A program made the position numbers and the translations under genes. Below are positions 1 through 16,383 of a stretch of 64,000 nt of DNA, piece after piece. The stretch comes from Leptolinea sp. (GTDB taxonomy: Bacteria; Chloroflexota; Anaerolineae; Anaerolineales; Anaerolineaceae), in contig JAAZMZ010000020.1 in the NCBI GenBank assembly GCA_012798535.1, forward strand, positions 45,979 through 109,978. Reading direction: 5' to 3'. The first letter of the stretch is position 1, and each line of letters starts with the position of its first letter. Under the pieces are notes generated by a model that had not been told where the DNA came from, did no database searches, and saw nothing but the letters and a program-made list of their open reading frames with translations.

Positions 1-1167
1 AAATCCGACCCACGCGCCAAAGAAATATTTCAGGTGACGGGATGTCCGATCGAAATGCTTTACCCTCTTTCGAAGATCCGTTGGATGATCGAAAATGGAC
101 TTTCAGACCCCGAAAGCCGGTATCTAAGCGTGAAAGACTACATCCTGTTTCATCTGACCGGTTGTTTCATTACAGATTGGTCGATGGGGTCCTCCTCCGG
201 TTTGATGGATATCGCAAAGCATATCTGGTATCCGGAGGCTCTGTCTCTGGCTGGTATATCTGAGAAAAATCTTCCCGCCCTGTACTCAACGCGGCATATC
301 ATTTCCTTGCCAGATTCCGAATTACTCCGTCAGATGGGAATCCAGCCGGGAACACCCTTGATTCTGGGTGCGGGTGATGCGCCGCTCTCCAGTCTGGGAG
401 TAGGAGCGCTTGATCCGGGAGTTCTAGTAGTCAATGTGGGCACAAGTACGGCCGCCCGTAAAATGGTACAAAGACCGTTGCCGGATGACCGGCAGCAGTT
501 ATGGACCTATGTGTTGGACGAAACCCACTGGGTTACCGGTGGTATGTCCAGCAGTGGTGGGATGATCTACGATTGGTTTAAGAATATTTTCTGCGTTGAT
601 CAGGGTCAAGACGCTTACCTCGAGATGGAAAAACAAGCGGAAAATGTACCACCTGGCGCGGAAGGATTGATCTTTATACCCTATCTGGCTGGAGAACTGT
701 GTCCTTCCTGGAGTGCCGGTACGCGGGGCGGATTCCACAGGCTGGACATCCTTCACCACCGCGGTCACTTGACGCGCGCGGTTCTTGAGGGAATTACTTT
801 TTCTATTTATCGGATCATTGAGACGATCCAAACCGTACACAAAGACCCGATAATGGAAATTCGGGTAACCGGAGGACTGGCGGCCTCTTCTCTCTGGCAG
901 CGCATGGCTGTGGATATTTTCGGATATCCGCTAGTGATCGCCAATTCAAATGAAGGTTCCGCCCGCGGCGGCGCCTACCTGGCTCTAAACATACTTGGAT
1001 ATCTGGAATCACTGGAAGAAGCGGAAGAGATGACCGTCTCCGATGCGCGCCTGCTGCCGGATGCGCGAAATCATTCCCGATATATGGATATCTATGCTCA
1101 ATTTATAGATTTCCTGGAACGCACACGAGAGATTACAGGTGAAAGCATTCATCAAACAGATATATGA
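1..1167 (+). CDS. FGGY-family carbohydrate kinase, 5' truncated by window edge
   Basis: Reading frame is open to base 1; C-terminal FGGY kinase features (GAGDAPLSSLGVGALDPG, VNVGTSTAARKM, EIRVTGGLAASSLWQRMAVDIFG, GSARGGAYLA). Confidence 0.9.
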   Translation, partial: KSDPRAKEIFQVTGCPIEMLYPLSKIRWMIENGLSDPESRYLSVKDYILFHLTGCFITDWSMGSSSGLMDIAKHIWYPEALSLAGISEKNLPALYSTRHIISLPDSELLRQMGIQPGTPLILGAGDAPLSSLGVGALDPGVLVVNVGTSTAARKMVQRPLPDDRQQLWTYVLDETHWVTGGMSSSGGMIYDWFKNIFCVDQGQDAYLEMEKQAENVPPGAEGLIFIPYLAGELCPSWSAGTRGGFHRLDILHHRGHLTRAVLEGITFSIYRIIETIQTVHKDPIMEIRVTGGLAASSLWQRMAVDIFGYPLVIANSNEGSARGGAYLALNILGYLESLEEAEEMTVSDARLLPDARNHSRYMDIYAQFIDFLERTREITGESIHQTDI

Positions 1168-1190
1168 AAACTAAAGTTACAGGAGGAGAA

Positions 1191-2120
1191 ATGATCACAG
1201 GTTCACTGGTCCCCAATATCACCTTTTTCGATAAACATGGCAATCTCGATCTGGATAAGACCCGTTGGCATATGCAATGGATGTTCGAAAAAGGTGTGGA
1301 TGGTCTGTTCCTCACCGGTTCTTATGGATCCGGTCCGATGATGACCAACGATGAACGGGTGGAGATCTTTCGACTGGCGAAACAGGTGGCTGGTGGTTTC
1401 AAAGGGAAATATATCATCCCGCATGTGGGATGCGTGGATACAAAGAACACCGTAGAGTTGGCGCGGCAGGCGGAAAAGATCGGTGTTGATGCTATTGCTT
1501 CTGTGCCTCCGTTTTATTACAAACATTCGGAAGATTTGATCCTCGAGTTTTATAAAGACATCATCGAGGCAGTACACATCCCGGTTTATGCCTATAACAA
1601 TCCGGAAACATCACGTTTTGTATTTACTCTTAATACCGTTCGAAAACTGCGTGAAATGGGATTGGCCGGAATAAAGGATAGCCCGGTGGAAGTCGGTTTC
1701 CTGAGTTCCGTCTTCTATGATGTCAAACAGTCGCAAAAGAAATTCGATATTATTCTGGGCACTTCGAAAGGCTGGCTGCCTTATTACTACATGGGCTGCC
1801 GGGCGATGATCGCAGGGATGAATAATTACGCCCCTGAGGTTATGACCCTACTCACAAAATCAACTTTTGCGGGTGATACCGCAACATCAGAAAAGGCGTA
1901 CCTGGTAATGATGGATATCAGTGCCAAACTGCATTTCACCGACAGCACCATCGCTTCCCACATGGCTCTCTATGCGAGGGGTTTTGATGCCGGATTTCCG
2001 CGCAAACCCATGCAGCTTCCAGCTTTTGATTCGCCGAAGTATGCAGAGCTTCGCTCCGTGCTGCAAAATGGATTCGACAGCCTGGGTTTGAAAATGGAAA
2101 CCGGTGATTTCCAGAAATAG
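1191..2120 (+). CDS. Dihydrodipicolinate synthase / N-acetylneuraminate lyase family aldolase
   Basis: DapA-superfamily motifs: VPVYAYNNPETSR (Tyr) and LAGIKDSP (Schiff-base Lys). ORF opens at 1164 but AGGAGG lies just before ATG 1191. Confidence 0.88.
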   Translation: MITGSLVPNITFFDKHGNLDLDKTRWHMQWMFEKGVDGLFLTGSYGSGPMMTNDERVEIFRLAKQVAGGFKGKYIIPHVGCVDTKNTVELARQAEKIGVDAIASVPPFYYKHSEDLILEFYKDIIEAVHIPVYAYNNPETSRFVFTLNTVRKLREMGLAGIKDSPVEVGFLSSVFYDVKQSQKKFDIILGTSKGWLPYYYMGCRAMIAGMNNYAPEVMTLLTKSTFAGDTATSEKAYLVMMDISAKLHFTDSTIASHMALYARGFDAGFPRKPMQLPAFDSPKYAELRSVLQNGFDSLGLKMETGDFQK

Positions 2121-5049: not shown

Positions 5050-6000
5050 CTAGCGCACTGAATTGGCTGCGTTATTTAATTCTTCAAACAGAGTTTTATT
5101 CAGGTTTACGTGTAACACCTGCGCAACTACCTGAGTCCAGCCGTGCACAAAATACAACCAGCCGTCTTCAACCCTGACATTACGGGATTTGACCTGCCGT
5201 AAAGCCTGATGCATGAAATCCAGTTCACCCCGGTAGTTGAACTCCCAGGCTATGGTATCCTTAGGAAAAAGACCATTGTCTGTGATGGGAGATCCCGGTG
5301 TGTCTTTACCCATTCCCGTCGCGTTGATCACAATACTGCTGCGCGGCATGTTTTTCATGATCTCGTCGTTCTTTTTGGGATCCGCATTGCAGATATATTC
5401 CACCCGGATATCGGTGTGCAATTCGGCAACCATTTCTTTCGCATGATCCAACCGACCGGCGGAACGATTGACCATGATAAAACGTTTTGGACGATCGGCG
5501 GGATTCGTTTTATTAATGAGATGAAGCAGGGTGGCAATGGCCGATCCACCGGCACCGAAGCAGAGTACATCTCCGCCGGTTCTTCCAAAATATCCTTCTC
5601 CAATAATGGAATCCAGACTTAAACCGGCCGTAATCGGATCTTTTGCGTGGCCTTCCAATCGTCCATCCAATTTGGAAATACTCGAAACTTCATCACAGAT
5701 TTCCGCATAGGGATCAAGATAATCGAACATATCCCGCGCGGCGGTCAGCAGGTCGATTTTGTGGGTGGTGACCAGAGCTCCCAGCGACAATGGATCATAT
5801 TTGATCTGGGCAACTGCCTGCCGGTAGGCCTCGGCGGAGTCGTGTATCTTCAAGTCGACACCTTCGATGATGACACCTGGACGGCCCAGAACTTTCATCC
5901 ACAGGGGAAAGACCTTCATGATGGATGATCTTGTTGTGGTTACACCGATGAAATAAAAGGTGGGTACTGACTTAGTTGCAATCGGGTAGGGGGAAATCAT
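5050..6000 (-). CDS. Shikimate/quinate dehydrogenase-like protein (divergent AroE paralogue)
   Basis: Substrate-domain Lys (GALVTTHKIDLL) and NADP fold GAGGSAIATLLHL with VNRS and INATGMGKDTPGSP; substrate motifs differ from canonical AroE. Confidence 0.8.
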   Translation of the reverse strand: MISPYPIATKSVPTFYFIGVTTTRSSIMKVFPLWMKVLGRPGVIIEGVDLKIHDSAEAYRQAVAQIKYDPLSLGALVTTHKIDLLTAARDMFDYLDPYAEICDEVSSISKLDGRLEGHAKDPITAGLSLDSIIGEGYFGRTGGDVLCFGAGGSAIATLLHLINKTNPADRPKRFIMVNRSAGRLDHAKEMVAELHTDIRVEYICNADPKKNDEIMKNMPRSSIVINATGMGKDTPGSPITDNGLFPKDTIAWEFNYRGELDFMHQALRQVKSRNVRVEDGWLYFVHGWTQVVAQVLHVNLNKTLFEELNNAANSVR

Positions 6001-6020: not shown

Positions 6021-6671
6021 TCAACTGGCAACCCGGGCATCCCGGACAGCCTGGACAAAATTCTTCGCTCTGGTGGTGATTTCTTTGAAATTACCTTCCT
6101 GAGCCAGTTTTGGCGGGCAGAGTTCGCTTCCCGCGCCTACTGCCACAACACCTGCAGCAAACCAGTCCTTCACATTATCCACGCTCACACCGCCGGTCGG
6201 CATCATGGGTATCTGCGGGAACGGTCCATGCAGTGCTTTTATGTACGATGGACCGGTCAATGAACCGGGAAAGACCTTTACCACGTCCGCTCCGGATTCG
6301 AAGGCAAAAAACACTTCTGTCGGGGTCAGAGCGCCGATCATACTAGCCGCGCCGGAGGATGTCATGGCTTTGACCAGAAGTGGTTCGCATACCGGGCTGA
6401 CCAAAAAATTGGCACCCGCAGCCAGTGCTGATTTCACCTGGGCTGGTCTGGTGAGTGTACCCATACCCAGAACAATACTTTCGCCAAAGTATCTGGCGAG
6501 TTGAGATACTACATCTTCGGCGTTGGGTGTGCTGTAGGTGATTTCAATTCCACGAACGCCGCCTTCCACAAGCGCTTCCACCATTTTCACCGTTAATTCG
6601 GCTGATGGTCCCCTGATCACGGAGACCAATCCGAGCTCTTTGATCTTTGAGAGTACAGTCTGTTTATCCAT
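6021..6671 (-). CDS. 2-dehydro-3-deoxyphosphogluconate (KDPG) aldolase family protein
   Basis: RGIEITYSTPNAED, NFLVSPVCEP, ADVVKVFPG (Schiff-base Lys), PMMPTGGVSVDNV; start at internal Met (MDKQTVLSKIK). Confidence 0.9.
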   Translation of the reverse strand: MDKQTVLSKIKELGLVSVIRGPSAELTVKMVEALVEGGVRGIEITYSTPNAEDVVSQLARYFGESIVLGMGTLTRPAQVKSALAAGANFLVSPVCEPLLVKAMTSSGAASMIGALTPTEVFFAFESGADVVKVFPGSLTGPSYIKALHGPFPQIPMMPTGGVSVDNVKDWFAAGVVAVGAGSELCPPKLAQEGNFKEITTRAKNFVQAVRDARVAS

Positions 6672-6691: not shown

Positions 6692-7657
6692 TTATTGAAC
6701 CGGATGCAGAGGAGGTTTCCCCTGAAGCACAGCCAGGCAATCTTCGTAAGCCATCCAACCCATCTGATTTACTGCTCCATCCGTCTGAGCGCCTAGATGG
6801 GGGGTGGAAATTACACCGGGGAAGGAGAGCAGCTCGGAATTGGGGTCCGGGGGTTCTTGAATCAGAGCATCCAGCGCTGCGCCTGCCAGATGGCCGCTTT
6901 TCAATGCTTCCAATAAAGCATCTTCATCCACAAGTTCTCCGCGGGCGGTGTTGATCAGGTACGCTCCCCTTTTCATCTGGGATAGGAACTGCCTGTTCAC
7001 CAGGTTCTTCGTTTGAGGCATCAAAGGAAGATGCAGGCTGACAAAATCGGCCTTCTCGAGGATCACATTCATCTCATCCAGGTCGATCTGATGCTCTGCC
7101 GCGAATTTCTGATCTGGATAAGGATCATAGGCCATCAAGTGACAACCAAAACCCTTCAGCCGCAGAGCCGTCTGTTTCCCAATTGCACCAAGACCGATAA
7201 GCGCCACATATTTGTTTTCCAGGGTTATCCCCGAAAGCCGCGGCCACTGGCCGGCGCGCGTGGCAGAAAAAGCCGGGGACAGCTGTCTGGCCAGGGTCAA
7301 GATAAGGGCAACAGCCAGTTCGGCAACCGATGCGGAATTGGCTCCCGGTGTATTGGTGACTACGATTCCCATCTTTTTAGCAACCTCAAGATCGACGGCA
7401 TCCACTCCCACACCGTATCGGGCAATGACTTTAAGTTTGTCGGCGTGCTGCAGCGCGCGGCTGTCGATGCAATCCAATCCGGCGATGTAGCCATCGATTC
7501 CCGGAAGAAGACTGGCCACCTCTTCCGAGGTTAATGGTTTGCCTGTCGGATTGTAGATCACTTCACCGAACTGCCGCTCAAGTTCGGTTTTCAACCGGGG
7601 GTCATTTTTGGCGTAAGAAGTTGGTGTAACCAGCAATCTAAATTTCTTTAGGTCCAT
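6692..7657 (-). CDS. D-isomer-specific 2-hydroxyacid dehydrogenase (phosphoglycerate-dehydrogenase-like)
   Basis: IARYGVGVDAVDLEVAKKMGIVVTNTPGANSASVAELAVALIL, GLGAIGKQTALRLKGFG, LINTARGELVDEDAL, STPHLGAQTDGA. Confidence 0.92.
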   Translation of the reverse strand: MDLKKFRLLVTPTSYAKNDPRLKTELERQFGEVIYNPTGKPLTSEEVASLLPGIDGYIAGLDCIDSRALQHADKLKVIARYGVGVDAVDLEVAKKMGIVVTNTPGANSASVAELAVALILTLARQLSPAFSATRAGQWPRLSGITLENKYVALIGLGAIGKQTALRLKGFGCHLMAYDPYPDQKFAAEHQIDLDEMNVILEKADFVSLHLPLMPQTKNLVNRQFLSQMKRGAYLINTARGELVDEDALLEALKSGHLAGAALDALIQEPPDPNSELLSFPGVISTPHLGAQTDGAVNQMGWMAYEDCLAVLQGKPPLHPVQ

Positions 7658-7662
7658 ATGTA

Positions 7663-8241
7663 TCACCCTGTTTTCCAGTTTGGATTATCAATGCTTTTAT
7701 ATCCATCTGTGCTGTCAACGATCAATTTCCTGAAGCCCCGTTTGATAATGGTGCCGTAATCGTGGCCTGCGTTGCCGGGATAAATAAAGAATGTCACCAG
7801 GTCGTTCTGCCTGCCGGTGCAGACAGAGCGGTGTGCCCACCGTGGAGGAACATATAGAATCTTTCCCGGTACCAAAGGTTCTATGCTGGTATCTCCCTCC
7901 GGATTTTCCATGATCATCACACCCTCACCTTTCAGGCAGTAATAAATCTCGGCCGTCTCCAGTACCGAATGGAAATGACCTTTCGTCATGAAAAACTCAT
8001 TTCCGACCTTTCCGGGATGTACGATGGATATTCCGGATAAAAGCTCGCCGGGAATTTCAGGACGGTGGATTTCATATACCTCATACATCAGGGAATCACC
8101 TTTAGACTGCAATTCCTTGAATGCCTGTGTATCGAGAAACATACCTTCCATGGATGACAGGCGGCGTTCCAGGTGACGATCGTACTTATGGGGGATGCAG
8201 GTAGGGAAAGCAAGATCTATTGAAAAGGGAATGTCAGGCAT
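7663..8241 (-). CDS. Cupin-type (archaeal-type) glucose-6-phosphate isomerase family protein
   Basis: Cupin metal motif TKGHFHSVLETAEIYYCLKGEGVMIME and PPRWAHRSVCTG; GGAG precedes ATG at 8241. Confidence 0.82.
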   Translation of the reverse strand: MPDIPFSIDLAFPTCIPHKYDRHLERRLSSMEGMFLDTQAFKELQSKGDSLMYEVYEIHRPEIPGELLSGISIVHPGKVGNEFFMTKGHFHSVLETAEIYYCLKGEGVMIMENPEGDTSIEPLVPGKILYVPPRWAHRSVCTGRQNDLVTFFIYPGNAGHDYGTIIKRGFRKLIVDSTDGYKSIDNPNWKTG

Positions 8242-8253
8242 GCGTATCTCCAA

Positions 8254-9195
8254 TCAGTTGCGAATTTCTGTTGCCAGAATCCGGCAAATATTCTTACCGA
8301 GTAATTTTTGGATTGTTTCATCAGGAACGCCCATTTTTTCCAGGCGTTGTTTTATTTGTGTGGGAAAGGCGCTCAATCCGGGTGCTCCGCCAAAACTCTG
8401 CCAGTAATTGGATTCGGCCAGGTCAGTTGCCAGGCACACATGATTTTCTAAACCCGATGCGATCATCTCTCTGATCAGCGGCCAGAGATTTGTTTCAGGT
8501 GCATATTTTGTACGAAAGAAGGTGTCATATTCCAGCGCAGCACCGGCCTGAATGAGTTCTCGATGTAACCCGGCATCCGGCCGTTTATCCATATGGCATA
8601 GAATGACCTGCCGTGGATCAACTCCGAGAGACAGAAACAGGTCAAGAATTTCGATTGCCGATTCGCCTTTTTCAGTGTGAATTTCTATAGCCCTGTCGGT
8701 CTCCCTGGCGGCGTGCGCTGCGGCGTGTAATGCCGGCAGATAGGTATTTTCAACAGTGTTCTCGCAGGCGATCTTGATAAAACCTGCTTTCACAGGAGAC
8801 TCCGTATTGAGGGTTTCCCTTTCTCCCAGAGTGAGCTCCTGGATGAAGTAGTCGCTGATTTGGTTCTCCGGGCTCATCCACAACCAGTGATCCGGTGGAT
8901 AATACACAGGCCGATGAAAACCTGTGGCCGAAATGATGGTCACGGTAGTGGCCTTTGACAATCGGGTGAGCATGACAGCATTTCGGCCGCATTCGCCAGG
9001 CTGGCAATCCACCAGAGCAGACCCGCCGGTGCTGGCATAATCCAGCAACTCCCGGGCGATGAGATCAAATCTATTCAAGACAGGTCCAGTAGGTTCAATC
9101 CCGGAAATTGTGTCGATCCAGACGTGATTATGAGCATCGGTGATGCCCGGTGCATCCCAGGGGATATTTCCAGTTACTGTTACAAGAAATTTCAC
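8254..9195 (-). CDS. Phosphotriesterase-family metal-dependent hydrolase
   Basis: Metal ligands: TDAHNHVW (HxH), GFIKIACEN (Lys), IEIHTEKG (His), ILCHMDKRPD (His), LATDLAESN (Asp). Confidence 0.85.
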   Translation of the reverse strand: MKFLVTVTGNIPWDAPGITDAHNHVWIDTISGIEPTGPVLNRFDLIARELLDYASTGGSALVDCQPGECGRNAVMLTRLSKATTVTIISATGFHRPVYYPPDHWLWMSPENQISDYFIQELTLGERETLNTESPVKAGFIKIACENTVENTYLPALHAAAHAARETDRAIEIHTEKGESAIEILDLFLSLGVDPRQVILCHMDKRPDAGLHRELIQAGAALEYDTFFRTKYAPETNLWPLIREMIASGLENHVCLATDLAESNYWQSFGGAPGLSAFPTQIKQRLEKMGVPDETIQKLLGKNICRILATEIRN

Positions 9196-9220: not shown

Positions 9221-9261
9221 ATGTACGTACATAATTATATATATTATTCTAGGGGTGTCAA
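9221..9261 (-). promoter_or_regulatory. Predicted sigma-70 promoter plus palindromic operator for the minus-strand operon
   Basis: Minus strand: TTGACA (9261..9256), 16 nt, TATAAT (9239..9234), 1 nt, palindrome ATGTACGTACAT (9232..9221). Confidence 0.8.
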
Positions 9262-9302
9262 GACACCGGGGTCAGATCTGTGTGAACTTGCAAATTCTAT
9301 TA

Positions 9303-9343
9303 TTGACAATCTGTAAAGAAATATTATAATAATGTACGAACAT
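9303..9343 (+). promoter_or_regulatory. Predicted sigma-70 promoter plus palindromic operator for the plus-strand operon
   Basis: TTGACA (9303..9308), 16 nt, TATAAT (9325..9330), 1 nt, near-palindrome ATGTACGAACAT (9332..9343). Confidence 0.8.
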
Positions 9344-9393: not shown

Positions 9394-10110
9394 ATGACTG
9401 AATTAAGGCCAATTAATTCTGTAAATGACATTGCACAGATGATCGATATCAGTGCTGTCCAGGCGGATAGCACGGACGACAAAGTTAAGGAAGTTGTTCA
9501 ACGTGCCAGAAAATACAATTGTTATCTGGTTACGATCCTGCCAGCGCAAACCTTGCATGCCAAAAGCCTGCTGCAGGGATTGCCGACCCCTAAATTGGGC
9601 GGTAATGTTGGATTCCCATCCGGTGGACAGACGACTTCGATAAAATTTCAAGAAGCCCGGGAACTGGTGAAAATGGGGGTGGATGAAATCGATATGGTGA
9701 TCGATATCGCCGCGCATCTTTCCGGCCGCGACGAGGATGTGTACAATGATATTAAAGCCGTCGTGAACGCCTCAGAGGAGAAACCGGTTAAAGTCATTAT
9801 CGAATGTAACTATTTAAATAATCAACAAATACTGAAAGCCTGTGATCTGATCATCAAGGCAGGCGCAGCCTATGTTAAAACCGGTACGGGATGGGCGCCA
9901 TCCGGCGCGACACCCGATAACGTGGAGTTGATTAAAAAGCATGTGGGTGATCAAATAAAGATCAAGGCGTCGGGTGGAATTCGCAAGGTCGACACTCTCC
10001 TTGACATGTACCGGCGAGGAGCTTCGCGCTTTGGCATTTCTGTTACTTCGGCAACCCGGATACTGGAAGCGGCATCAGGATTAAAATATCCCATACAATT
10101 CGGTGAATAA
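9394..10110 (+). CDS. deoC: Deoxyribose-phosphate aldolase (DeoC) family protein
   Basis: AYVKTGTGWAPSGAT and IKIKASGGIRKVDTLLDM carry both active-site lysines. Confidence 0.9.
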   Translation: MTELRPINSVNDIAQMIDISAVQADSTDDKVKEVVQRARKYNCYLVTILPAQTLHAKSLLQGLPTPKLGGNVGFPSGGQTTSIKFQEARELVKMGVDEIDMVIDIAAHLSGRDEDVYNDIKAVVNASEEKPVKVIIECNYLNNQQILKACDLIIKAGAAYVKTGTGWAPSGATPDNVELIKKHVGDQIKIKASGGIRKVDTLLDMYRRGASRFGISVTSATRILEAASGLKYPIQFGE

Positions 10111-11671
10111 AGGTGACGGCGTGCAAACCTTCATAATTGCGTATGATCTTGGCACCGGGGGCAATAAAGCGTCGCTGTACGATCCAGAGGGAAATTGTGT
10201 CGCTGAGTGTTTCGAGAGTTACACAACCCATTATCCGCAAAATGGATGGCATGAACAATGCCCGGAAGATTGGTGGAAAGCTGTCGTAATTAGTACGCGC
10301 CGCCTGCTGCAGTCATCGGGCATCGATGGAAAAACGGTCACCTGTTGTGGAATTTCCGGACATAGCCTGGGAGTTGTTCCCATCGACAGGGAGGGGAAGC
10401 TTTTACGGGAGATGACCCCCATCTGGTCCGATTCTCGGGCAGTAGATGAAGCGGCGGAATTTTTCCAACGTTTCCCGGAAAATGAATGGTACAGGATCAC
10501 AGGAAATGGTTTTCCCGCCCATTTGTATTCCGTGTTCAAGATCATGTGGTATCGAAATCATGAACCAGATATGTTCCGCCAGATCTATAAAGTGATCGGT
10601 ACCAAAGACTATATTAACTTTAAGCTCACAGGTTATATCGGAACCGATTATTCCTACGCCTCAGGCAGCGGCGTTTATGATCTGCCGGGATGGCAATACC
10701 AGTCAGATCTTCTGGCGGCCAGCGGATTACCCGTGGATATTTTCCCTGAGATTGTTCCTTCGACACAGGTGATCGGGAAGTTGACGAAAAATGCCGCTGA
10801 AGAACTGGGATTGTCGGACCAGATTCAGGTGGTCTGCGGAGGGGTGGACAATTCCTGTATGGCGCTGGGTGCTCGCAATACCCGCGAAGGGCGCATTTAC
10901 ATCTCCCTGGGTTCTTCTGCCTGGATCGCCATATCTTCCCGCAAACCTTTGATCGATGTCAAGATTCGGCCTTACGTCTTTACCCATGTTATCCCCGGTC
11001 TCTTCACATCGGCAGTCAGCACATTCGCCGCCGGTTCCAGTTTCCGCTGGGTGCGCGACAACCTGTGCCGTGATTTAAAAGCCAGAGCTGCAGCTGAGAA
11101 TGTTGATGAATATGACCTGATGACCGCCGAAGCGGCAATCTCTCCGGTTGGCGCCAATTACCTGTTTTTCAATCCCAATCTGGCCGGCGGCACATCCTTG
11201 AGTACCAGTCCGCAGATCCGGGGCGCTTTCCTGGGATTGGATTTACGGCATACCCGCGCGGATATGATCCGGGCGGCTATGGAAGGGATTTCCCTGGAAT
11301 TGCGTATAGCATTAGATGCTTTAAGAACGATGGGCTCATTTGAATCGGAAATGCTGGTGGTCGGCGGGGGCAGCAACAGCCGGTTATGGCGGCAAATATT
11401 GGCTGATGCCTTTGAGATGGATATCGTGAAAACCAGCATCGATCAGCAGGCGGCGGCTCTCGGCGCGGCTGCCTGTGCCGCTGTAGGTACGGGCCTATGG
11501 AAGGACTTTGACATCATTGACGGGTTGCATCATATTCAGGATGTCAGCCATCCAAAAAGAGAGAATTCCAAAAAATACCAATCCCTTCTACCGATCTTTC
11601 GAAGCGCCGGAAATGACCTGGCAAAACTTGGAGATCAGGTAAGTAGATTGAAGGAACAAAATATTCATTAA
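10103..11671 (+). CDS. FGGY-family carbohydrate kinase (xylulokinase-like)
   Basis: IAYDLGTGGNKASLYD, CCGISGHSLGVVPID, VCGGVDNSCMALGARN, MLVVGGGSNSRLWRQILADAF; true start may be the GTG near 10121. Confidence 0.92.
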   Translation: MNKGDGVQTFIIAYDLGTGGNKASLYDPEGNCVAECFESYTTHYPQNGWHEQCPEDWWKAVVISTRRLLQSSGIDGKTVTCCGISGHSLGVVPIDREGKLLREMTPIWSDSRAVDEAAEFFQRFPENEWYRITGNGFPAHLYSVFKIMWYRNHEPDMFRQIYKVIGTKDYINFKLTGYIGTDYSYASGSGVYDLPGWQYQSDLLAASGLPVDIFPEIVPSTQVIGKLTKNAAEELGLSDQIQVVCGGVDNSCMALGARNTREGRIYISLGSSAWIAISSRKPLIDVKIRPYVFTHVIPGLFTSAVSTFAAGSSFRWVRDNLCRDLKARAAAENVDEYDLMTAEAAISPVGANYLFFNPNLAGGTSLSTSPQIRGAFLGLDLRHTRADMIRAAMEGISLELRIALDALRTMGSFESEMLVVGGGSNSRLWRQILADAFEMDIVKTSIDQQAAALGAAACAAVGTGLWKDFDIIDGLHHIQDVSHPKRENSKKYQSLLPIFRSAGNDLAKLGDQVSRLKEQNIH

Positions 11672-11685
11672 CTAAGGAGAATGGC

Positions 11686-12411
11686 ATGTTACCTGAAAAC
11701 TGGGGCTTTACAAATCCTGTTGTCTCACCACTTTATGGCAAACCACCATTGGTATGGAAGGACATGCGAATTCAACTGGTTGTATATGAGACAGATATAG
11801 CCAATATCAAGCAGGTTATTCCGGCTCCGCTTGAGCCGCGTACCAATAAAGTGATCACCTGGATCTCCCAATTTGAACTGGGAACCACGCAGGGTGCCTT
11901 CAAAGAGATGGCAATTTACGTCCAGGTTAAATACAAGGATTTTGAAGGTGATTATGAACCCTTCCTGTATGTATCCACTCCGTTACCATTAACTGCCGGG
12001 CGCGAGATCTGGGGCTATCAAAAGAAAATGGCCGAGATTAGTCTGGCCTTCGAACAGGAAGCTGTCATTGGCAAGGTAGTTCGTCTCGACCATCAGATCA
12101 TGAAGACTCTGGTAGTTCCCGAATATATAGCCCCCATGTCGGAAGTTCCCTGGAGCCGGGATGGTGTTTTTTCTTTGAAATACATACCAAGTGCTGAAGA
12201 AAATGGGAGAGCTATTCGAGAATTGGTTTTAACAGAGGGCAAATTTACCGCACAGGAAGGGAAATTCTTCGGCGGTCGGGCTTCTGTACTCTACGAGCGT
12301 TCTGAAATCGATCCTACCTTTAAGCTCGAACCCAAACGAATTCTGGGCGGTTTCTTCGGGCAGGGCGATTTGTATCTACCGCTTGGAAAAATCGTCCACG
12401 ATTATAAATAA
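11686..12411 (+). CDS. Acetoacetate decarboxylase family protein
   Basis: ADC-fold features: REIWGYQKKMAEISLAFEQEAVIGKV, FFGGRASVLYERSEIDPTFKLEPKRILGGFFGQGDLYLPLGKIVHDY. Confidence 0.82.
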   Translation: MLPENWGFTNPVVSPLYGKPPLVWKDMRIQLVVYETDIANIKQVIPAPLEPRTNKVITWISQFELGTTQGAFKEMAIYVQVKYKDFEGDYEPFLYVSTPLPLTAGREIWGYQKKMAEISLAFEQEAVIGKVVRLDHQIMKTLVVPEYIAPMSEVPWSRDGVFSLKYIPSAEENGRAIRELVLTEGKFTAQEGKFFGGRASVLYERSEIDPTFKLEPKRILGGFFGQGDLYLPLGKIVHDYK

Positions 12412-12436
12412 CGAGGAAAGTGCCTTCTACACGTTG

Positions 12437-12481
12437 AACAACCTCTCAAAGGAGATCTAGTATCTCTTTTGAGAGGTTGTT
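12437..12481. other. Long near-perfect hairpin between the ADC-like gene and gntR
   Basis: 20-bp inverted repeat AACAACCTCTCAAAGGAGAT/ATCTCTTTTGAGAGGTTGTT (one G-U), 5-nt loop; only weak T-tract (TCGTTTC). Confidence 0.75.
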
Positions 12482-12587
12482 CGTTTCAATCATCCCAACA
12501 CCAACGCGTCACACAGGATGCATTTCTCTGCGAGACGGGTCTATGTTAGAATAATATTAAGACAGGTTAATTTGATGGAGTCTAACC

Positions 12588-13322
12588 TTGGACAAACTGG
12601 ATAAATCAATACCTACGCCACTGTATTATCAACTGCTCATCATTTTAAAAGAAAAAATTGAAAGCGGTGTGTGGAAACCCGGCGATATCATTCCGACGGA
12701 ACAGGAATTGATGGAACAATATGACATCAGCCGGTCAACGACAAGGCAGGCCATACTGGCTCTGGTAAATGATGGGTATTTGCACCGGGAGAAATCCAAA
12801 GGGACGATTGTCAGCAGTCCAACCGGACGGATGCGTTTTGTGGGTAGCCTGATGAGCTTCTCCGAGGAGATGGATAGCAAGAAAATTCCGCATTATTCGC
12901 AGATCATTGGTCAAGAAGTGCTGCCTGCTTCCGAGGCAATAGCCGAGAAGTTCGATATCAAACCTGGTTCATCGGTATATCACCTGAAGCGAATCCGGTT
13001 TGTGAATGACAGGCCATTCCTGCTGGATGAGCACTTCATTCCATACTACCTTTGCCAGGGGATCGAAGAAAAGTATAAAAACAACACATCTCTCTACAAA
13101 TTATTGAAGCTTGAATACAACTTCAATTTGCATCACGGGCAAATCGAATTTGAACCGGTGGTTCCGACATCGAAAGAAGTGATAGACCTGCTTAAGGTGA
13201 ATCCGACCACCAGTCTGCTATATGTGGCCCGCATGGTTTATTCAGATCAGGATGTTCCCCTGGATTATTTCACAGCCATTATTCACGGGAAATTCTCTAT
13301 TGATGTAATTTCCACTACATAA
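12588..13322 (+). CDS. GntR-family (HutC/UTRA subfamily) transcriptional regulator
   Basis: TTG start with GGAG upstream; wHTH PTEQELMEQYDISRSTTRQAILALVNDGYLHREKSKGTIV, followed by UTRA domain with YHLKRIRFVNDRPFLLDEHFIP. Confidence 0.92.
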   Translation: MDKLDKSIPTPLYYQLLIILKEKIESGVWKPGDIIPTEQELMEQYDISRSTTRQAILALVNDGYLHREKSKGTIVSSPTGRMRFVGSLMSFSEEMDSKKIPHYSQIIGQEVLPASEAIAEKFDIKPGSSVYHLKRIRFVNDRPFLLDEHFIPYYLCQGIEEKYKNNTSLYKLLKLEYNFNLHHGQIEFEPVVPTSKEVIDLLKVNPTTSLLYVARMVYSDQDVPLDYFTAIIHGKFSIDVISTT

Positions 13323-13353
13323 GTCTGGAAAAATGTAGAACGATAAATTTTGG

Positions 13354-13387
13354 AAAGGATCATCCCGAATATTGGATGATCCTTTTT
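13354..13387 (+). terminator. Rho-independent terminator after gntR
   Basis: Perfect 12-bp stem AAAGGATCATCC/GGATGATCCTTT, loop CGAATATT, followed by TT-ATT. Confidence 0.85.
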
Positions 13388-13393
13388 ATTCTC

Positions 13394-13421
13394 TTGAAAT
13401 TTATCCATCCTTATATATAAT
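13394..13421 (+). promoter_or_regulatory. Predicted sigma-70 promoter for the ferredoxin-nitroreductase/padR operon
   Basis: TTGAAA (13394..13399), 16 nt, TATAAT (13416..13421), embedded in an ATATAT-rich possible PadR site. Confidence 0.6.
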
Positions 13422-13458
13422 AATATATATAACAATATTGGTATAAAGTGAGGTGAGT

Positions 13459-14361
13459 ATGAATGTACAACATTTCATTGATGCTGAAACCTGTACCGGG
13501 TGCGGTAATTGTGTGGATGTGTGTCCCAATCGGATCATCCATCGGAGCGCTTCCGGAAAAAGCACTATGTTGGATGAGCGCCTCTGGATGTGTTTTCAAT
13601 GCGGCCAATGCATGGCGGTTTGCCCGACGAAATCCGTGCATGTTGCCGGCCTCAATTATGAAGTAGATTTTTTCTCTCTGCCCAAAACTGCGGAGGGAGG
13701 ATACACCCACTTTTCAGAACTGATCGCCAGCCGGCGTGCCGGGCGTTGTTTTTTGGATAAACCAGTTCCACATGAACACCTAGAAAAGATCGTCCGGGCG
13801 ATACAAATGGCTCCTCCTGGTTTCCCTCCGATAAAAACTGAGCTGACTGTTGTAGAGGATCCATTGATTGTCAGGAACTCACTTCCCATGATGATCAGTT
13901 TCTATGAAAGCCTGATCAGGGCGATGAAAAATCCCATATCCCGGCAGTTCGTGAAACATGGCGCAGGACGCGAAAAATACATAACCATAAAGAATCATCT
14001 CCTGCCTTTGATGATCGAACGTTTGCCTGATTTGAAAAACGGCCGGGAAGATACCATCCTGAGAAGGGCACCGGCTTTGATTCTGTTTCACGCTGACCGG
14101 AACAGTGAAAATTACATGGCGGATATTTACATCGCGCTGACTTATGGTTTTCTCGCGGCTCACGCGCTGGGATTGGCAGCCTCTGCCATGGACCTGATCC
14201 CGCCTGCTGTAGAGAAGAGCAGAGAATTGCGTGAATATTTCAATATCCCTGAAAGCAATACCGTGGTAGCTTCCATGATCCTGGGTTATCCAAAGCATCA
14301 TTTTCAACGGGGGATCAAGCGTGAATTGAAAAGTGTAACCTGGTTGCAGAAAGAGGCATGA
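13459..14361 (+). CDS. Ferredoxin-nitroreductase fusion protein (2x[4Fe-4S])
   Basis: CTGCGNCVDVCP and CFQCGQCMAVCP clusters followed by nitroreductase domain (SRRAGRCFLDKPVPHEHLEKIVRAIQMAPPG...). Confidence 0.9.
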   Translation: MNVQHFIDAETCTGCGNCVDVCPNRIIHRSASGKSTMLDERLWMCFQCGQCMAVCPTKSVHVAGLNYEVDFFSLPKTAEGGYTHFSELIASRRAGRCFLDKPVPHEHLEKIVRAIQMAPPGFPPIKTELTVVEDPLIVRNSLPMMISFYESLIRAMKNPISRQFVKHGAGREKYITIKNHLLPLMIERLPDLKNGREDTILRRAPALILFHADRNSENYMADIYIALTYGFLAAHALGLAASAMDLIPPAVEKSRELREYFNIPESNTVVASMILGYPKHHFQRGIKRELKSVTWLQKEA

Positions 14362-14912
14362 TGCTTAAATTTGCCATCCTGGGTTTTCTTGGTTATTCTC
14401 CGATGACCGGGTATGCGATCAAGCAGCGCATGGATCGTTCCACAACGCATTTCTGGCATGCCAGGCAAAGCCAGATATACACAACATTGAAAGCTCTGGA
14501 AGAAGAAGGATTGGCAACTTCAATGATTCAAGAGCAAGTGGAAAGACCGGATAAACGCCTGTATTTCATAACAGATAATGGCCGATCCAGTTTCCTTGCA
14601 TGGCTGCAAGAGCCTTATTTGGAATGCAGCCCTAAAAAGGAGACACTGGTTTTGAAGATGTTCTTTGCCGCGCAGATGGAATCCGATACGGCATTATCGC
14701 AATTACAGATCCAGTTGAATATCCATCGGAAACAATTAGATCATTATCGAAATGATAGTGTAAAGGAGATCAAACAGGCTAAAGCCGAATTCCCGAGTCT
14801 CGTCAGAGACGCGCGTATGTGGGAAGCCACCCGGAGGTTCGGCGAGATGTATGAAGAGACCTATATCCGCTGGATTGAGGAAATGATTGCAGAAATCCAG
14901 ATGGACCAATGA
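14358..14912 (+). CDS. PadR-family transcriptional regulator
   Basis: FAILGFLGYSPMTGYAIKQRMDRSTTHFWHARQSQIYTTLKALEEEGLA; ATGA overlap with upstream gene. Confidence 0.92.
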   Translation: MMLKFAILGFLGYSPMTGYAIKQRMDRSTTHFWHARQSQIYTTLKALEEEGLATSMIQEQVERPDKRLYFITDNGRSSFLAWLQEPYLECSPKKETLVLKMFFAAQMESDTALSQLQIQLNIHRKQLDHYRNDSVKEIKQAKAEFPSLVRDARMWEATRRFGEMYEETYIRWIEEMIAEIQMDQ

Positions 14913-14922
14913 ATGGATGCTT

Positions 14923-16383
14923 TCAAGCTGCCGGTAAGGTGATCTGGAATTGTGTTCCATACCCCTTATTGGAAACCGTAGTAAATACCGGGCTAATTAC
15001 CTGGATTTGGCCGTTATGCGCTTCCACCAACTGCTTCACAATAGCCAAACCCAATCCGGCTCCACCGCTGATCCGTGAACGGGATTTATCCGCCCGATAG
15101 AACCGGTCAAAAATAAACGAGAGATCTTCCGCGTTTATCCCGGTACCGGTGTCTGTGACATCGATTACGATCCGCTGATGCTCTGAATCTGTGGAAGCAC
15201 TGATGGATATCTCGCCGCTTTCCGGTGTGTAACGCAAAGCATTACTTAGAAGATTGTTCATTATCTGTGTAAAACGGTCTTTATCCAATTCACAGACGGG
15301 CAATGCATCATCAAATCTCATAGTCAGTGACACATTTTTCTGATTGGCAAGCGGCTTCAGACTGTCGACAACCTGCCGGATCAGAACATCCGGTTTCTGG
15401 GGAGACTTATCCAACTTCAACTGACCGGCTTCAGCCAGAGAGAGCAGGCGCAGATCATTGATCAGTCGGTTGAGTAAGGTTGTTTGTCCATGAAGCACTT
15501 CCAGTTGTTCATCATCTACTGGCAGGATCTTATCCTGCATGGCTTCGATCGTTCCCTGTATGGCTGTCAAGGGGGTGCGTAATTCGTGGGCAATATCTGC
15601 CATATAATGCTGGCGGGCGGTTTGAGCCTTTTCGAGGTTCTCTGCCATCTGGTTAAATGAACTGCCGACGTCCGCAAGTTCATCTCTGGAATGTATAGAA
15701 ACCCGCCGACTGAAGTTACCAGTGCCGATCTCTGCTGCCGCTTTTTTTAACTCACGCAATGGTGCAGTGATCTGATTGAACACAAATGTACCCAGTATGA
15801 GAGCCAGAACAGCGCCGGCAATAATCGAGGCGACTATTGAGTGTCTCATAGTCTCCAGGAAATCTCCGGAGGGGGTACCGGCTCTGGGCAAGCCAGAAAA
15901 CACGAGTATAGTTCCAATACGTTGATCATTCAGCATCACCGGAGTTCCATTGTCTAAATCCTCTGATGAGAGCTTCTCCCGGGTATCAAATGATTGTGAA
16001 TCAAAAATTACCATTCCATCAGCATCTGCCAGCACCAGTCTCTGGTTGGAATCATCCATCATTCCACCAGACATCATCTGGTTCCGGGATTCGTTTATTC
16101 CCCATTTGCCTTTTCCCATCATGTTTCCTCCCATCATGGGAGACTCTTCCAAGAAATTGTTGGCAAGTAACACGTTGACGCCATTCCAGGTGTTGTTGAC
16201 CGCATAATAACTGGCAAGGGTGTTCGCCAATCGTTCCGCCCAAGCGGTCCGATTGCGCGCCGAATAGACATCGAAAGCGTGACTGGTGGCATGAGAAGTC
16301 GCTGTGAATATTACCAGCGCGCTGATCAAGATCAGAAAGAGAAAAGCCGCCATGATCTTGAATCTAAGACTGATGTGTTTCAT
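14923..16383 (-). CDS. HAMP-domain sensor histidine kinase with Met-rich extracytoplasmic loop
   Basis: HAMP, H-box DIAHELRTPLTAIQG, N-box NNLLSNALRYTPESG, G1/G2 boxes; ATG 16383 overlaps the end of the response regulator gene. Confidence 0.92.
   Translation of the reverse strand: MKHISLRFKIMAAFLFLILISALVIFTATSHATSHAFDVYSARNRTAWAERLANTLASYYAVNNTWNGVNVLLANNFLEESPMMGGNMMGKGKWGINESRNQMMSGGMMDDSNQRLVLADADGMVIFDSQSFDTREKLSSEDLDNGTPVMLNDQRIGTILVFSGLPRAGTPSGDFLETMRHSIVASIIAGAVLALILGTFVFNQITAPLRELKKAAAEIGTGNFSRRVSIHSRDELADVGSSFNQMAENLEKAQTARQHYMADIAHELRTPLTAIQGTIEAMQDKILPVDDEQLEVLHGQTTLLNRLINDLRLLSLAEAGQLKLDKSPQKPDVLIRQVVDSLKPLANQKNVSLTMRFDDALPVCELDKDRFTQIMNNLLSNALRYTPESGEISISASTDSEHQRIVIDVTDTGTGINAEDLSFIFDRFYRADKSRSRISGGAGLGLAIVKQLVEAHNGQIQVISPVFTTVSNKGYGTQFQITLPAA

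Follow-up and report, generated by a model that had tools for sequence, protein, structure and literature searches.

Two catabolic operons of a Leptolinea sp. face away from each other across a short intergenic region, and each is preceded by the same promoter and the same short palindrome. Which protein recognizes these palindromes, how it acts there and how many operons it governs are the questions raised by this locus, which we analyzed within a 64,000-nt stretch of the genome (the window). The module TTGACA-N16-TATAAT-N1-ATGTACG(T/A)ACAT is read directly on the minus strand (9261..9221) and on the plus strand (9303..9343), and its description in the original prediction proved exact to the base. 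On the minus strand, TTGACA (9261..9256) is separated by 16 nt from TATAAT (9239..9234), and ATGTACGTACAT (9232..9221) follows after a single nucleotide. The plus-strand copy consists, with identical spacings, of TTGACA (9303..9308), TATAAT (9325..9330) and ATGTACGAACAT (9332..9343). The elements are as follows:

9234..9261, minus strand: left-operon promoter, perfect-consensus TTGACA-N16-TATAAT (direct reading and shuffle comparison)
9221..9232, unstranded: putative left-operon operator palindrome ATGTACGTACAT, over the expected transcription start
9303..9330, plus strand: right-operon promoter, perfect-consensus TTGACA-N16-TATAAT (direct reading and shuffle comparison)
9332..9343, unstranded: putative right-operon operator palindrome ATGTACGAACAT, over the expected transcription start

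The left palindrome is fully symmetric and the right one breaks symmetry at one position pair; their centers (9226.5 and 9337.5) are separated by 111 bp. The pair had been described as mirror-symmetric, which is true for the hexamers, their spacing and the palindrome, with 28 of the 41 positions identical between the two arms. The two spacers are unrelated in sequence. The window contains two perfect promoters (TTGACA-N15-18-TATAAT) against 0.06 expected from shuffles, and exact palindromes only at the two divergent sites. When two mismatches were allowed, the total number of palindromes in the window was not above chance. Across the 3.5-Mb genome, only four ATGTACGWACAT loci were found, three of which begin exactly 1 bp past a perfect -10 box (the divergent pair and C42:37465-37476). 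The other 21 of the 24 perfect promoters in the genome are devoid of the palindrome, and the combination TATAAT-N0-2-ATGTACGWACAT, present three times here, did not occur in any of the 395 other genomes searched within the class. With three of only four palindrome loci in this precise position, the co-occurrence of promoter and palindrome is not due to chance.

The third of these loci carries the complete module, TTGACA-N16-TATAAT-N1-ATGTACGAACAT (C42:37436-37476), 8.5 kb before the window begins and 17.7 kb from the divergent pair. A site had been predicted ahead of the operon that is cut at position 1, and it was indeed found there. An IclR-family gene (C42:37589-38368) lies 112 bp downstream of this module and leads a transporter operon, followed by genes for a sugar-binding protein, two permeases, two ATPases and a major-royal-jelly-protein (MRJP)/SMP-30-like protein, and finally by FGGY kinase and DHDPS-family genes. 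Judging from gene spacing and orientation, the run through 34..2120 of the window would form one transcript. A further perfect TTGACA-N16-TATAAT, without palindrome, was observed on the minus strand (L005:7279-7306; C42:37279-37306) and is oriented toward a run of histidine biosynthesis genes. The genes and the hairpin considered below are:

5050..6000, minus strand: shikimate-dehydrogenase-like gene (weak aroE match)
6021..6671, minus strand: KDPG/KHG aldolase gene (PF01081; TIGR01182 above cut-off)
6692..7666, minus strand: D-2-hydroxyacid dehydrogenase gene (PF02826/PF00389)
7663..8253, minus strand: cupin-type glucose-6-phosphate-isomerase-family gene (PF06560)
8254..9195, minus strand: phosphotriesterase-family lactonase-like gene, first in the left operon (PF02126; GTG start after AAGGA)
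9394..10110, plus strand: DeoC-family aldolase gene, first in the right operon (PF01791; TIGR00126 above cut-off)
10103..11671, plus strand: FGGY-family sugar kinase gene (PF00370/PF02782; xylulokinase model below cut-off)
11686..12411, plus strand: acetoacetate-decarboxylase-family (ADC) gene (PF06314)
12436..12482, plus strand: hairpin between the ADC and GntR genes (47 nt, 21-bp perfect stem, energy z -6.6)
12588..13322, plus strand: gene for a GntR/UTRA regulator of the HutC subfamily, the repressor proposed for both palindromes (PF00392 and PF07702)
34..2120, plus strand: genes for an FGGY kinase and a DHDPS-family aldolase, at the downstream end of the run of transporter genes

Only the DeoC and KDPG aldolase models pass their equivalog cut-offs; the kinase and lactonase scores fall below, that of the lactonase-like product being under the phospho-furanose lactonase cut-off. 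The MRJP/SMP-30-like gene located among the sugar transporter genes (L005:14481-15653) possibly encodes a lactonase.

The original prediction named the product of the gene at 12588 as the obvious candidate for the repressor at both sites. This protein possesses an N-terminal GntR winged helix-turn-helix domain (PF00392, 67.5 bits against a cut-off of 27) and a C-terminal UTRA effector domain (PF07702, 97 bits against a cut-off of 23.8), and it scores below every curated cut-off of the named HutC equivalogs (HutC, TreR, PhnF and NagR-like). Our results make it probable that both palindromes are operators of this HutC-subfamily protein, which would block transcription initiation independently at each site until relieved by an effector and would also control the third module. 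The sequences show the modules, their near exclusivity to three operons and the joint conservation of palindrome and GntR in relatives; from these we infer binding by the 12588 protein, repression rather than activation, an effector, and independence of the sites. A GntR dimer would sit on each palindrome, which extends from about -5 to about +7 in a perfect-consensus promoter of the sigma-70 type, and would prevent transcription of that operon by start occlusion or by a block of promoter clearance. Occlusion is the likely mechanism judging from position: the -10 boxes end at 9330 (plus strand) and 9234 (minus strand), and the start, about 7 nt further, is expected inside each palindrome. Repression would be lifted when a metabolite of the pathway, possibly a sugar acid or a phosphorylated sugar, binds the UTRA domain. 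The two divergent sites would act independently, one per operon. They lie 31 bp (left) and 56 bp (right) from the start codons of their own operons, and double sites near their own gene starts in divergons that lack the regulator gene appear to be independent (PMC4494728). Finally, through the third identical module, the same repressor would also control the sugar ABC-transporter operon, including the IclR gene. Computationally, the predicted scheme of one dimeric repressor with one type of operator over the start sites is supported.

The properties of the operator agree with this assignment. Most operators of the HutC subfamily present GT and AC 4 nt apart (PMC4494728), and both sites of the divergent region read GT-ACGW-AC. 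They deviate from the full HutC consensus GTMTAKAC, which has a TA center (PMC4494728), in that their center is CG. The best solved relatives of the 12588 product are the structures of NagR/YvoA of Bacillus subtilis (PDB 4u0v, 4wwc, 2wv0), NagR being the closest. NagR and DasR share its two-domain build, recognize palindromic operators in which 4 nt separate GT from AC, and place one repressor over several operons of a single catabolic pathway. In contrast, the half-site in the window is ATGT instead of TGGT, the center is CG instead of TA, and Gln39 replaces Arg38 of NagR. In NagR, Arg48 reads G-4 and Arg38 reads G-5 (PMC4333415). The 12588 protein and its relatives retain the arginine that reads G-4 and present Gln, Asn, Lys, Val or Ile at the position that reads G-5, a pattern that is consistent with ATGT rather than TGGT half-sites without constituting a proof. 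Under this contact model, a Gln39-to-Arg substitution is predicted to switch preference between ATGTACGWACAT and TGGTACGWACCA, and the orthologs represent a small natural series linking residues of the helix-turn-helix to operator bases.

AraR of B. subtilis offers a second comparison, with a GntR-type DNA-binding domain joined to an effector domain of the LacI/GalR type. The latter is absent from the 12588 product, whose C-terminal domain is UTRA. The ORA1 box of AraR is AATTGTTCGTACAAAT (PMC4218819), and its core TGTnCGTACA matches the palindrome of the window. The arrangement is that of a textbook repressor-operator divergon, in which the regulator belongs to the HutC subfamily and the operator combines HutC spacing with an AraR-like center. 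As in the FadR/HutC double-site divergons (PMC4494728), two sites share one divergent intergenic region and each is near its own operon; unlike them, the sites of the window occupy an identical position in two perfect-consensus promoters.

We then considered the conservation of regulator and palindrome. Among 147 genomes of the family, only two others encode close GntR orthologs (63% and 53% identity), Anaerolineaceae bacterium UBA3924 (G021) and Anaerolineae bacterium A373 (G031), and wider samples of the class and phylum yielded no additional one. Both orthologs reside in operons with palindrome promoters, and the palindromes at these operons differ by at most one base. In UBA3924, the genes for DeoC, kinase, ADC, binding protein, permease, ATPase and GntR form one run; ATGTAGGTACAT is found at the TTGACA promoter of this run with extra GTACAT half-sites adjoining, and ATGTACGAACAT lies 19 bp ahead of the GntR start. 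Three loci of this genome fit the palindrome with at most one mismatch, and two of them belong to the GntR-DeoC-transporter run. This gene order confirms the predicted regulon membership of the DeoC-kinase-ADC genes and the transporter genes, which are in separate operons in our genome. In A373, ATGTACTAACAT is located at the promoter of a run comprising binding protein, ABC, alcohol dehydrogenase, GntR and DeoC genes. One of the two genomes has a one-base variant at a single site, with no second site found. Phylogenetic footprinting, by which the original prediction could have been refuted, thus revealed the palindrome in two other genera of the family, upstream of the orthologous operons that bear the regulator. 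The claim that the GntR/UTRA protein is the binder gains support from this result. Its placement at the end of the right operon does not hold: the ADC and GntR genes are separated by 176 bp containing the hairpin at 12436..12482, which is very stable, lacks a T run and is possibly a terminator or processing site. Given this gap and hairpin, the GntR gene probably has its own transcript or receives only read-through. We saw no palindrome before the GntR gene in this genome. A further genome (G028) possesses DeoC and kinase orthologs without GntR, and the only similar site before the kinase has two mismatches; this pattern is weakly consistent with a joint loss of GntR and site.

Several points count against the GntR protein as the regulator: the lack of a palindrome at its own gene, its separation by the hairpin, the presence of the IclR gene in the same gene set and the small number of close orthologs (two). 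The IclR-family protein could itself bind the palindromes and control all three operons, as its gene lies just downstream of the third module and is first in the transporter operon. We consider this very improbable. UBA3924 and A373 have no close IclR ortholog and their palindromes persist, and two genomes with IclR orthologs presented no such palindrome in the loci fetched; in these sequence comparisons, the palindrome thus tracks GntR. The motifs of IclR regulators are GKTYCRYW3-4RYGRAMC (group 1) or TGRAACAN1-2TGTTYCA (group 2) (PMC8222616), and ATGTACGWACAT, compared by reading, fits neither. Moreover, a KdgR-like repeat/inverted element, AATGAAAC..GTTTTACATAATGAAAC (C42:37530-37559; L005:7530-7559), immediately precedes the IclR gene and makes a better candidate site for this protein. 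A second promoter-like sequence, TTGACA-N17-TATCAT, was also found between the operator and the IclR gene, in one stretch with the KdgR-like element (C42:37498-37559; L005:7498-7559). In view of these two elements, double control of the transporter operon is possible. It is likewise unlikely that another regulator, either a GntR/UTRA paralog or the PadR-family protein encoded nearby at 14358, binds the palindromes. The genome contains eight matches to the GntR query, and one paralog (28% identity) is preceded by the one-mismatch site ATGTACATACAT (C50:26145-26156; L012:1501-1512), about 92 bp upstream of its gene. This is likely an autoregulatory site of that paralog and hints that paralogs use related operators. 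The cluster conserved in UBA3924 and A373, however, contains the ortholog of the 12588 gene and gave no match to PadR. PadR operators have the longer spacing ATGT-N8-ACAT, which exceeds that of the palindrome.

The palindromes could also be a conserved initial transcribed sequence or another start-site feature of strong promoters, as suggested by their fixed distance of 1 bp from three perfect -10 boxes. This explanation is hardly credible, given the other 21 perfect promoters that lack the palindrome and the relatives UBA3924 and A373, in which the palindrome is retained while its distance to the -10 box varies. Finally, the original prediction had allowed for a repression loop bridging the two operators, an idea favored by the presence of both sites within a single short intergenic region. 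AraR forms loops between its paired boxes, and its cooperative binding needs operators that are in phase (PMC4218819). In contrast, 111 bp correspond to about 10.6 helical turns, which puts the sites of the window out of phase, on opposite faces, and each site already covers a start site. Together with the apparent independence of double sites in HutC-type divergons without the regulator gene, this leaves looping unsupported and highly unlikely.

More distant relatives of the GntR protein were also considered. When contigs of named genomes were scanned with the GntR sequence alone, no match was obtained; an alignment of three orthologs gave 13 loci, including Neobacillus and Paenibacillus. In these two genera (L117-L120, about 10001-15100), a GntR/UTRA relative (33-35%) directly precedes orthologs of the left operon: hydroxyacid dehydrogenase, lactonase, shikimate-dehydrogenase-like protein (50-53% identical to the copy in the window) and cupin isomerase, with KDPG aldolase in three of the four loci. 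ATGT-N4-ACAT sites, ATGTAAGTACAT or ATGTAAAGACAT, are located between the regulator and the enzymes, and ATGTCATTACAT is found ahead of the regulator in three loci. Independently of the window, these sequences link the left operon to the same type of regulator. As the loci are related among themselves, they represent few independent events. The gene set itself is a catabolic cluster common to Bacilli and Chloroflexi. At a locus of Clostridia (L115; GntR 40% identity), the palindrome was not found with the pattern used, and at a further locus (L116; GntR 37%), ATGTACGGACAT lies ahead of a kinase-ABC gene run.

The fourth exact palindrome of the genome, ATGTACGTACAT (C14:21115-21126; L006:10115-10126), precedes a gene for a methyl-accepting chemotaxis protein and is located 9 bp past a TATTAT on the same strand. 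This site may place the chemoreceptor in the regulon or may be due to chance, for which we estimate from base counts an expectation of roughly half a site. It is absent from the best-matching chemoreceptor loci of three genomes of the same genus, which also lack GntR. The one-mismatch sites other than that of C50 look mostly like chance occurrences, and those examined by translated comparison showed no tie to the gene set.

If the 12588 protein binds all three modules, this catabolic gene set would gain an operator and a regulator and would become a regulon of three operons, in a phylum that has been little studied. The dataset table of PMC4494728 contains no HutC regulator of Chloroflexi. A broader and more speculative reading, which we regard as possible but doubtful, is that of an undescribed Anaerolineaceae regulon in which a UTRA-type GntR acts on AraR-like, CG-centered operators, and the catabolic route, the ABC importer, a second-tier IclR and the chemoreceptor of C14 share one switch. 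The route would include sugar kinases, lactonase, cupin isomerase, the shikimate-dehydrogenase-like enzyme and the KDPG and DeoC aldolases. Uptake, catabolism and taxis would then be controlled together.

Downstream of the GntR gene, a ferredoxin-nitroreductase fusion gene overlaps the PadR-family regulator gene (window 13453-14912), and a TTGAAA-N16-TATAAT promoter lies with these genes in AT-rich repeats (13394-13421).
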